Below are positions 2 through 6,000 of a DNA stretch of 64,000 bases, piece by piece. The notes under the pieces were generated by a model. That model had not been told where the DNA came from. It saw only the letters and a list, made by a program, of their open reading frames with translations, and searched no databases. The stretch is from Nitrospinae bacterium CG11_big_fil_rev_8_21_14_0_20_45_15 (GTDB lineage: Bacteria; Nitrospinota; Nitrospinia; Nitrospinales; VA-1). How positions within the stretch are numbered: position 1 is the first letter of the stretch; each line of letters starts with the position of its first letter. Location: the NCBI GenBank assembly GCA_002787235.1, contig PCWG01000004.1, forward strand, positions 1-64,000, given 5' to 3'. Position numbers and translations under genes: made by a program.

Positions 2-289
2 CTGGCGAAACTTCCTTCCCATGTTTTTATGGAACCGGCGATCACCAATTACCTGCTCGACAACAACGTGGACATACCTCCAGAATTCAAGAAAGAGTAT
101 GGATTGTCCGACGGGCCGGAAGAGGACGGTCGTGAGTCTTCCATGCGCAATCGGGAAAGCTTTCCGATCCCGAACGAGATATACAACGATCCCGCTTTTG
201 ACGAATACCTGAAAGCCGTGGGCCTGCCCAAACCGCCGCAAATCCCCGTGGGTTTCAAAAAGATCGATTCGAGCAAAGCGATGCGCTGA
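2..289 (+). CDS. C-terminal end of an unidentified protein (5' truncated)
   Basis: The reading frame is open from base 2, through an internal ATG at 29, to a TGA at 287-289, so this is the last 95 residues of a gene that begins outside the window. The visible part is hydrophilic and proline-rich, with no membrane segment, cysteine or recognisable motif. It lies just before a flagellar gene set on the same strand, so a flagellar or motility link is possible but only inferred from position. I do not recognise the family. The frame itself is well supported by its continuity to the window edge. Confidence 0.55.
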   Translation: MAKLPSHVFMEPAITNYLLDNNVDIPPEFKKEYGLSDGPEEDGRESSMRNRESFPIPNEIYNDPAFDEYLKAVGLPKPPQIPVGFKKIDSSKAMR

Positions 290-519
290 TGCATTGCGGC
301 TAGATTTGCCCGCACACTCCGATCTTTAGCTATGAGTCCACAGGCTGAAAATTCCTGTCAGTCGCTTATGTTGATTGTATTCAATGGGATACCGCAAGAT
401 GTTCTGCACTTTTTTCCAATCAAACAAAGTCCGGTATTTTCATTCTCTTTGGAAATTAGGGCAGAAACAGATTTTCAGCTGATTTTTTAAAAAAAATTCA
501 AAAAAAGCAAAGAAATAGC

Positions 520-546
520 TAAAGTTTTCTAAAAAACTACCGATAA
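520..546 (+). promoter_or_regulatory. Sigma-28 (FliA) promoter, rightward
   Basis: TAAAGTTT at 520-527, an 11-base spacer, then ACCGATAA at 539-546. The classic flagellar sigma-28 consensus is TAAAGTTT-N11-GCCGATAA, so 15 of 16 positions match with the exact spacing. Transcription would start near 553 and run toward the disordered-protein gene at 828, leaving a leader of about 275 bases. A late-class flagellar role fits the FliD, chaperone and FlgM-like genes downstream. Confidence 0.85.
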
Positions 547-654
547 GGAAAGCGGAGAGCTAAAACCTTCTGTCGTCAGGTAGATTGTTGCAACTTTGTA
601 ACATTTTATTTTTTATTGCTTTAGGCGGGAATGGTTTGAGTTGCGCTTAACTGT

Positions 655-681
655 TTATCGGAGTAAATGCTGTAAACTTTA
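655..681 (-). promoter_or_regulatory. Sigma-28 (FliA) promoter, leftward
   Basis: Read on the - strand this is TAAAGTTT (681-674), an 11-base spacer, then TCCGATAA (662-655): again 15 of 16 consensus positions with exact spacing. It points left, into the intergenic space and toward the antisense strand of the truncated gene at 2-289. There is no convincing - strand gene within reach, so an antisense or small RNA is the simplest product; the spacing and match make chance unlikely. Confidence 0.75.
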
Positions 682-827: not shown

Positions 828-1550
828 ATGGCTGAGGAAACTAATTTTACACCGATATCTTCTGATCGAAGACCCGTGCCAACGCAGGAGTCTATTGTAA
901 CCAATGCGTCTGCGCGTAAGGACACTCAGCAGGACAATCGACGCGCAGATATTGAAACGCGCGACGCTCAGGGAACCAGCGATCGTGTCGTCATCACACA
1001 GGGCGCAATTGACTTGAGTCGTGGAGGGGGTGCAAATTCACCGGATACCTCCAGTGCCTTGGATGAGGCCGCGGGCAGTGCGAACATTGCCAGTCGTACA
1101 TCGCCGTTGGAAGAAAACAAACCCCCTGACATTACCTTTCGAAATCTGAACGGAGCTCCAAACCCAAATGATAATGAAGTGGAGCGGGCGTTGCAATCCA
1201 ACCCGGTTGATGATGCGGTTCAATCCAGCCGTGTTGTAACGGAAAACCGTGTCGCAAGGGTGAGCGTAGGAGATGCTGTCGAGCAAAGAAACTCCGACCG
1301 TCAGAGTGACCCGACGCAGGACTCTCCGCAACCTTCGGAAGCGGCTCCTCCAGAGCGGGGAACCAGTAGCACCCAAAATCGAATTGAAACTCAGGAAACG
1401 AGAGCTCAGGAAGCACCGGTGAACGATAGAACTGCAAGGCAGGATGCAAATCAGGCCCAGGCAGAAAATCGATCCCGGGAGCAGGGCAGAGGGACGGATG
1501 CAACTGCCGTCCAGTCTGAAAGAGGTCAGAATCTTGATAACTTAGTATAA
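828..1550 (+). CDS. Disordered, low-complexity protein in flagellar locus
   Basis: 240 residues starting at ATG with a clear GGGAGG ribosome binding site about ten bases upstream. The protein is strongly biased: rich in Q, N, R, E, D, S, T and A, with no Cys, His, Trp or Tyr, only two Lys and only the initiator Met, so it should be soluble and intrinsically disordered. A short VVITQGAIDLS stretch around residues 53-63 faintly recalls the VxISxxA motif of FlgM-type proteins, including the one at 4429. The sigma-28 promoter upstream suggests expression with late flagellar genes. I do not recognise the family; a secreted or filament-associated role is speculation. Confidence 0.7.
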   Translation: MAEETNFTPISSDRRPVPTQESIVTNASARKDTQQDNRRADIETRDAQGTSDRVVITQGAIDLSRGGGANSPDTSSALDEAAGSANIASRTSPLEENKPPDITFRNLNGAPNPNDNEVERALQSNPVDDAVQSSRVVTENRVARVSVGDAVEQRNSDRQSDPTQDSPQPSEAAPPERGTSSTQNRIETQETRAQEAPVNDRTARQDANQAQAENRSREQGRGTDATAVQSERGQNLDNLV

Positions 1551-3972: not shown

Positions 3973-4413
3973 ATGAATCAATTGGGAAATTCAGAATCAG
4001 CAATAAAGATGTTGGAAGAAGAAAAAAAAATATATGAATTTCTTCTTGGGCGAATGGCTTTGCAAGAACAAGCCATTGATTCGGACAATGAAAAAGCTTT
4101 GATGGAAGTATTGGACGAAAAAGAACACGCACTCGAAAATTTGAGAGAAAAAAATCAGAGTCTCCTGCAATGGAGCTCGGAGTTGTCAGGTGCAGAGCGT
4201 GGAGAGATGGAAGAAAAAACGCGTGCGTTGAGAACGGAAATTGAAAATACGCTGCACCAGATCATTGAGCTGGAAGAACTTTGCGAGAAAAAACTCCAAT
4301 CCAAAAGCAGTCGAATGGGGCAGAAGTTGACGGGGTTGAAAAAGGGAAAAGTTTTGCTGAAAGGTTACAACACACCTACGCGAATCAAACCAAAGATTTC
4401 AAAAAACGTTTAA
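3973..4413 (+). CDS. FlgN/FliT-like flagellar export chaperone
   Basis: 146 residues, mostly helical and charged with coiled-coil heptads (LEEEKKIYEFLLGRMALQEQAI and LMEVLDEKEHALENLREKNQ). This pattern, a small helical protein with repeated EEK-L-x-x-L spacing, is typical of FlgN-family chaperones that hold hook-associated proteins before export; FliT, the FliD chaperone, looks similar. Its position directly behind fliD (ATG two bases after the stop) supports a chaperone for the cap or hook-filament junction proteins. The last 30 residues are basic (KKGKVLLKGYNTPTRIKPKISK). Assignment between FlgN and FliT is not possible from what I can see. Confidence 0.65.
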   Translation: MNQLGNSESAIKMLEEEKKIYEFLLGRMALQEQAIDSDNEKALMEVLDEKEHALENLREKNQSLLQWSSELSGAERGEMEEKTRALRTEIENTLHQIIELEELCEKKLQSKSSRMGQKLTGLKKGKVLLKGYNTPTRIKPKISKNV

Positions 4414-4914: not shown

Positions 4915-6000
4915 AGTTTGTTTTCTGCAGACGAGATTTTTCCCAGGGAGGATTGTTTCTTTTCCCAGATGCGCCTCGACTTGACCGATGGGCCAGCTAT
5001 TGATTTGATGTTTTTTGCAGATTGCCGCTACCTTTTCCGCATCGCCCGCGCCCTCAACGACCACACAGAATCCTATACCCATATTGAAGACCTCGTACAT
5101 TTCCGTATCCTCAATTTCGCCACAGTCCTGAATGAAATCGAATACAGGAGGGCAAGTTGGAATCGGGTCGATGACAAAGCGGATGTTATCAGCCTCAACA
5201 CGGTTGAGATTGCCAAAGCCGCCGCTGGTAATGTGGACCAGAGCTTTGATGCGAATATCAGATTCCAGCATTTCCATGACAGGTCGAACATAGATCTGCG
5301 TGGGTTTCAGAAGTTCGTCGCCAAGAGTGGTGCCCAGTCGAGGTTCAAATTTGTGTACCGATTCCCTTTGTTTCTCAATGGTATCGCCGAGCAGAGTTCT
5401 TCGTGCCAGAGTCAGGCCGTTGGAGTGAACGCCCGTTGAGGCCAGCCCCACAATCAAGTCACCCGGTTGCACGTCTTTTCCCGTGTTGATGCGATCGATG
5501 GGAACGACGCCGATGCAGGCACCGACCAGGTCTACTCCGGTAATGATTTCGCGTATTTGAGAAATTTCACCCCCGGAAATGCTGATTTCTGCCTGTCGGG
5601 CACCTTCAGCAAGACCTTCGCCCAAGGCCGAGAAAATTTCAGGATCGGTGTGTGAGCAGGCGATGTAGTCCACCATGCTGACAGGTCGCGCACCCACACA
5701 GATGACATCGTTGACGTTCATCGCCACGCAGTCGATGCCGATGGTGTTGTAACGATTCATCATCTCAGCGACGATAATTTTAGAGCCCACACCGTCGGTC
5801 CCAAAAGCTATCCCGGTTCCGTTTCCCATATCAATGACATTTGCAAAATAGCCAATGTCAGCGGCAAGAGGATTTTTCGTGTTGAAGGTACGCGTTGGTA
5901 AAACGTGTTTTAAAATCCCGGACAGCGCAGACTCGCCGCCTCGGCTGGAAACACCGCTTTTTGTGTATTGTGAATCGTCGGAATGTGTGGGTTGGGTCAT
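4900..6000 (-). CDS. purM: Phosphoribosylformylglycinamidine cyclo-ligase (AIR synthase)
   Basis: 366 residues, cytoplasmic, fifth step of purine synthesis: ATP-dependent ring closure of FGAM to AIR. Family signs include the N-terminal YTKSGV segment, GTDGVGSK, the DCVAMNVNDVICVGARPV block that binds ATP in the PurM/PurL superfamily, ISGGE(I/T) and the GVHSNG(L/F)TLAR signature, and HITSGGFGNLNR near the C-terminus. Length is slightly above the usual 340-350. It starts 50 bases after the symporter gene on the same strand, so the two may share a transcript, although no functional link is obvious. Confidence 0.93.
   Translation of the reverse strand: MTQPTHSDDSQYTKSGVSSRGGESALSGILKHVLPTRTFNTKNPLAADIGYFANVIDMGNGTGIAFGTDGVGSKIIVAEMMNRYNTIGIDCVAMNVNDVICVGARPVSMVDYIACSHTDPEIFSALGEGLAEGARQAEISISGGEISQIREIITGVDLVGACIGVVPIDRINTGKDVQPGDLIVGLASTGVHSNGLTLARRTLLGDTIEKQRESVHKFEPRLGTTLGDELLKPTQIYVRPVMEMLESDIRIKALVHITSGGFGNLNRVEADNIRFVIDPIPTCPPVFDFIQDCGEIEDTEMYEVFNMGIGFCVVVEGAGDAEKVAAICKKHQINSWPIGQVEAHLGKETILPGKNLVCRKQTFSKI

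Follow-up and report, generated by a model that had tools for sequence, protein, structure and literature searches.

The stretch of DNA analysed here (the window) comprises 64,000 nucleotides of the genome of Nitrospinae bacterium CG11_big_fil_rev_8_21_14_0_20_45_15 and starts at base 1 of its contig (C2), inside a duplicated gene of a 259-aa family. Its first kilobases carry the flagellar cap gene fliD and the following features:

2-289 (+): 3' part of a gene of the 259-aa family, truncated by the contig boundary; an 89% identical copy lies at G000:C35:35260-35544
489-506 (+): A-tracts resembling an UP element, upstream of the P28R -35 box
520-546 (+): P28R, predicted rightward sigma-28 promoter of the 240-aa gene/fliD cluster, TAAAGTTT-N11-ACCGATAA
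554-647 (both strands): stretch that would be doubly transcribed if both promoters fire
655-681 (-; read 681-655): P28L (L1), predicted leftward sigma-28 promoter, TAAAGTTT-N11-TCCGATAA
703-710 (-): A-tract ahead of the P28L -35 box, a T-run when read on the + strand
828-1550 (+): 240-aa gene (P240), the first gene downstream of P28R
1872-1899 (-; read 1899-1872): P28L2, sigma-28-like leftward site before fliD, TAAAGTGT-N12-GACGATAA
2133-3971 (+): fliD, flagellar filament cap protein (Pfam FliD_C, 6.9e-17)
3973-4413 (+): FlgN/FliT-like chaperone gene (Pfam FlgN, 3.3e-05, below the cut-off)

The product of P240 gave no Pfam or NCBIfam match and is presumably intrinsically disordered; the gene is fast-evolving and of low complexity, and a MAEExNFPLD-like start is the only part common between genera. 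Like c6 and c10, two clusters found to the left of the region in relatives, it is defined by sequence similarity only. The C35 copy of the 259-aa gene lies about 2 kb from c6, and as the contig starts inside this duplicated gene, the true left context of the paired sites in the window species is uncertain.

Two sigma-28 sites facing each other

P28R and P28L each match 15 of the 16 positions of the sigma-28 consensus (-35 TAAAGTTT, -10 GCCGATAA) with the exact 11-base spacing, just as the first-pass annotation of this DNA had described them. Both reach a match score of 0.98, and in many relatives the sense site scores equally well or better, the score reflecting match and not promoter strength. 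The -10 boxes are 108 bp apart, and transcription is predicted to start at about 553-556 from P28R and at about 647 (-) from P28L, so that the transcripts would converge, as had been proposed, in a gene-free stretch: no convincing gene was found between 290 and 827. Allowing up to two mismatches, 0.19 matches to the consensus are expected in the 64-kb window and three were observed, two of them exact at the positions searched, while the whole 3.37-Mb genome contains three exact matches in total, of which the pair accounts for two. The cognate sigma factor FliA is encoded in the genome (G000:C37:78451-79128; 288 bits against a curated cut-off of 189.6). A survey of the same genome, consisting of pattern matches and six stretches around flagellin genes and sigma-28-like sites, revealed no other convergent pair. 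The locus L061 (G000:C17:103000-122000) holds five tandem flagellin genes, some of them preceded by sigma-28-like sites without opposing partners.

The A-tract at 703-710 is the inverted-repeat partner of the tract upstream of P28R. Among the features upstream of P28R, the latter is conserved best over 11 genera, and its counterpart at P28L contains at least five A in 15 of 28 relatives. An origin of the two sites as inverted ends of a mobile element was considered and rejected, as only the promoter boxes and the A-tracts match between them. The stretch between the predicted starts (554-647) is well conserved with the closest species and divergent in the third species of the genus. Within it, a T-rich run, TTTATTTTTTT (+ strand, 601-617), lies some 35-50 nt downstream of the leftward start; its equivalent is present in most genomes, with the exception of genus g8, without a consistent hairpin before it.

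Conservation of the pair across the Nitrospinales

Lack of conservation of the -35/-10 pairs in relatives had been named beforehand as grounds for giving up the idea of paired promoters, and a search for the same layout upstream of flagellar genes had been proposed. Both comparisons came out in favour of the pair. The organism is of the Nitrospinaceae type, to judge by those relatives of its FliD that carry a name, and the Nitrospinales are marine. Of 31 Nitrospinales genomes with the whole region available, 28 carry a convergent pair upstream of fliD; these cover 11 genera in three families (g1, g4, g5, g6, g7 and g8 in the window's own family, g10 and g14 in f2, and g12, g13 and g15 in f4), and neighbourhood maps of fliD from 35 genomes place it before the gene that precedes fliD. 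The pair spans 118-281 bp across these relatives, with 162 and 163 bp in the other two species of the genus. The three exceptions are G038 with the rightward site only, G019 with the leftward site only and hence without P28R, and G009, which is rearranged; in three further genomes outside the 31 (G004, G030, G046) the region ends too early to judge. The more distant family f5 (G055) shows the rightward site only, and an additional public contig (L048) contains all sites. An exact-pattern search for the pair in 77 genomes of the phylum matched only G000 and G002, because relatives differ by one or two bases or in span; the relatives, all of them from one phylum, were assessed by scoring of fetched regions.

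Conservation is concentrated in the promoter boxes. In 23 pairwise genome comparisons, identity is 99% in the -35 box and 91% in the -10 box of P28R, and 95% and 83%, respectively, at P28L, values above the background formed by the spacers (54-60%), the interior and flanks (54-68%) and an alignment baseline of about 50%. The spacer of the leftward sites has the same T-rich end as that of the sense sites, and in both a purine/AGG motif, reading AGG/ARG at P28L, follows the -10 box by about 8 nt, which suits a transcription start. In the sequence, the spacer end and the start motif together speak most strongly for the leftward site being a working promoter.

These observations also bear on the question of whether the leftward motif is a product of chance or a relic without function, as could be argued from the shortness of the motif, the AT-rich DNA and the apparent inertness of some FliA sites in Escherichia coli. 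In shuffled sequence, a leftward site with a score of at least 0.78, the loosest threshold applied, is expected within 280 bp in 0.44 of 28 genomes, an estimate made on genomes picked for having the pair, for which the 31 complete regions are the fair denominator. No second rightward site was present in the same stretch of the 28 genomes. With its boxes conserved across deep divergence, a motif of no consequence appears hardly credible.

Further leftward sites and the changing left neighbours

The first-pass annotation had overlooked a third sigma-28 site, P28L2, which points leftward just before fliD. In the window species this site is weak (score 0.82, N12), while its equivalent in family f4 (G041, G043) represents a perfect consensus, and a transcript starting there would run antisense to the gene preceding fliD. 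Of 35 genomes, 25 have a leftward site scoring at least 0.78 in the 400 bp before fliD, and none has a rightward one there. A conserved small ORF over P28L2 was tried as an explanation and dropped, being inconsistent between genera, and neither the stretch between P28L and the 240-aa gene nor the one before fliD gave any consistent hidden sigma-54 or sigma-70 promoter.

As a separate observation, the approximately 300 nt that follow the 240-aa gene, up to the leftward site before fliD (about 1551-1870 in the window; L117:3198-3520 (-), with equivalents in g5 and g8) are strongly conserved and apparently non-coding in genera g5 and g8. Within this stretch, CGCCCGCC and GGCGGGCG are long-range complements, and a GC stem with a T-run resembles a terminator; the stretch has slight covariation support and matches no Rfam family.

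A deep lineage comprising L055-L058 carries one rightward and two leftward sigma-28 sites (R, L1 and L2) within about 240 bp before fliD. Its FliD proteins lie apart from those of the other Nitrospinales and of family f5, although the exact branching point is weakly supported. P240 is missing there and the left neighbours are unrelated, which leaves the sense promoter, the opposing promoters and fliD as the constants of the arrangement. In L055, a segment of about 29 bp is nearly duplicated between the two leftward sites (5563-5589 and 5664-5690), and L2 overlaps the presumed ribosome-binding site of fliD with its -35 box.

This overlap and the duplication would suit a device in which the leftward sites bind sigma-28 polymerase as a roadblock and yield little RNA, or, alternatively, an element of the mRNA leader on the sense strand, UUAUCGGC-N11-AAACUUUA; many FliA sites in E. 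coli are likewise without detectable RNA (PMC4183435). The boxes, the spacer length, the T-rich spacer end and the start nucleotides are nevertheless those of working promoters, none of which an mRNA element would need, and we regard either version as quite unlikely.

Since the leftward sites persist next to differing left neighbours, their conserved function probably resides in the stretch shared by all. Beyond the pair, several genera have c6 followed by a leftward flagellin-like gene, genus g5 has c6 with another gene, g6 has c6 and c10, g14 has c10 alone, and G005 has an unrelated leftward ORF. The 259-aa gene takes this position in the window species only, and antisense control of the gene at 2-289, the role first suggested for the leftward RNA, was therefore discarded as a general function. 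With regard to the neighbours themselves, c6 (L059:8888-9508) and c10, a 66-aa ORF (MEVNTIKIEIRKHHVTPG) with a nearly invariant N-terminus, are conserved families of unknown function that adjoin the leftward flagellin-like gene near fliD throughout the Nitrospinales; the reading frame of the flagellin-like gene is apparently broken in G008, G009 and G023.

P28L might instead serve genes further left, namely c10 and the flagellin-like gene, on a transcript whose long leader is antisense to c6. Such an arrangement would resemble the excludon or noncontiguous operon known from Listeria mogR and its flagellum (PMC7154746), with which the region would share opposed transcription at flagellar genes. 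In several genera, the flagellin-like gene and c10 indeed come next leftward beyond c6, and P28L has decayed or disappeared in two genomes in which c6 or the flagellin gene has moved away (G005, G038). An excludon, however, requires a long transcript that encodes the leftward gene (PMC7154746), while at fliD the neighbours change and P28L stays: it persists in g5, g6 and g14, with flagellin missing or far away, in the window species, with c6 and flagellin on another contig, and in L055-L058 despite their unrelated neighbours. In most genera, the flagellin-like gene beside c6 (L059:7914-8762 (-) and equivalents) moreover has a conserved TTGACA-type promoter of its own, recognized by eye, and no sigma-28 site. 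P28L was accordingly rejected as the promoter of this gene, which has also moved away in several lineages, and a coding antisense transcript of the excludon type appears very doubtful.

A less remote alternative is that P28L produces a short antisense or trans-acting small RNA and that this product, rather than the act of transcription, is what matters, for example as a flagellar regulatory RNA or through base-pairing to the P28R transcript at its 5' end. E. coli and Campylobacter have sigma-28-dependent small RNAs (PMC10578931, PMC11187230), which make a FliA-driven non-coding RNA a possible product. The first approximately 30 nt after each -10 box are somewhat conserved (68% against a baseline of about 47%), and the two closest species share 70-83% identity in the interior. 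The conservation at the 5' end largely equals the shared initiation motif, though, and beyond close relatives the interior is unconserved, with no sign of a conserved RNA body. In contrast to the known small RNAs, for which a defined 3' end or terminator and a known RNA family would be expected, no Rfam match was obtained, and a leftward intrinsic terminator within 450 nt was found in one of 28 genomes, with 1.7 expected by chance. The discrete small RNA put forward initially is weakened by these results, and we consider it unlikely, if less so than the excludon or the roadblock.

Opposed transcription as a possible limiter of cap protein output

The reading we favour, to which we give about an even chance, is that the region controls the fliD cluster and that P28R is opposed by P28L and P28L2, with FliA-driven interference limiting the output; tuning by interference, already raised in the first-pass annotation, fits the data best. 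P28R would transcribe the 240-aa gene and fliD, while P28L, a putatively strong leftward promoter about 95 bp ahead, and P28L2, just before fliD, would both fire against it. As FliA would drive sense and antisense transcription alike, initiation and head-on interference would rise together with increasing FliA activity. The interference could proceed through dislodged promoter complexes, polymerase collisions and possibly the pairing of overlapping RNA 5' ends, the last of which cannot be separated from the others by sequence. A near-consensus promoter would switch the cluster on at low FliA activity, and the opposing promoters would impose a low ceiling. A filament requires few copies of the FliD cap protein, a demand that such a ceiling would fit.

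The simulated capping is weak with L1 as the sole opposing promoter and strong if L2 is active as well. In a toy simulation of opposed promoters that included occlusion, sitting-duck removal and head-on collision, with freely chosen rather than measured rates and translation ignored, L1 alone lowered the sense output at most 1.7-fold, thus less than twofold, and the fliD output became non-monotonic if L2 was equally strong and 1.3 kb away. Translation favours the sense polymerase, so interference would be weaker than simulated, and the contribution of P28L2 in the window species may be small because the site is weak. More tentatively, one sense and two opposing FliA promoters before fliD could form an incoherent feed-forward loop made of promoters only, in which the cap output would plateau or fall at high FliA activity, and which would have been kept over deep divergence in the Nitrospinota without a regulator protein or a fixed neighbour gene.

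Convergent promoters, antisense FliA sites (PMC4183435), sigma-28-dependent small RNAs (PMC10578931) and excludons (PMC7154746) are already known. Closest in layout are helD and pps of Bacillus subtilis, where two face-to-face promoters upstream of one gene occur in many genomes and interference sets the sense output (PMC12802891). In those cases, the antisense promoter, a housekeeping one, is the stronger of the two and represses the sense promoter, rifampicin relieves the repression, and the -10 boxes are 45-55 bp apart; before fliD, in contrast, all sites belong to the flagellar sigma factor, the pair is of near-equal match and more widely spaced, and a second antisense site is present. In a synthetic system, repression grows with antisense strength and with the distance between promoters (PMC4731013), and together with helD and pps this establishes the principle that convergent promoters can interfere. 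FliA-type sites pointing away from or against annotated genes were also reported in E. coli, where, in the available part of that report, they are mostly intragenic, most lack a detectable transcript and none is described as facing a flagellar promoter (PMC4183435); unlike these, the fliD sites are conserved in position and orientation over an order. The open-access literature searched, which leaves most subscription papers outside, describes neither convergent FliA promoters nor a sense promoter before fliD that faces, throughout an order, one or two promoters for its own alternative sigma factor.

Because conservation of antisense promoters is rare, they tend to be written off as noise. Before fliD, antisense promoters of an alternative sigma factor keep their position and sequence in many genera, with changing genes downstream of them. 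This argues for selection on the opposed transcription itself, and the persistence of the layout suggests that it may be this transcription that limits the amount of cap protein. The fliD region of the Nitrospinales thereby offers a natural system for asking whether convergent promoters of the same sigma factor set the ceiling of a late flagellar operon.
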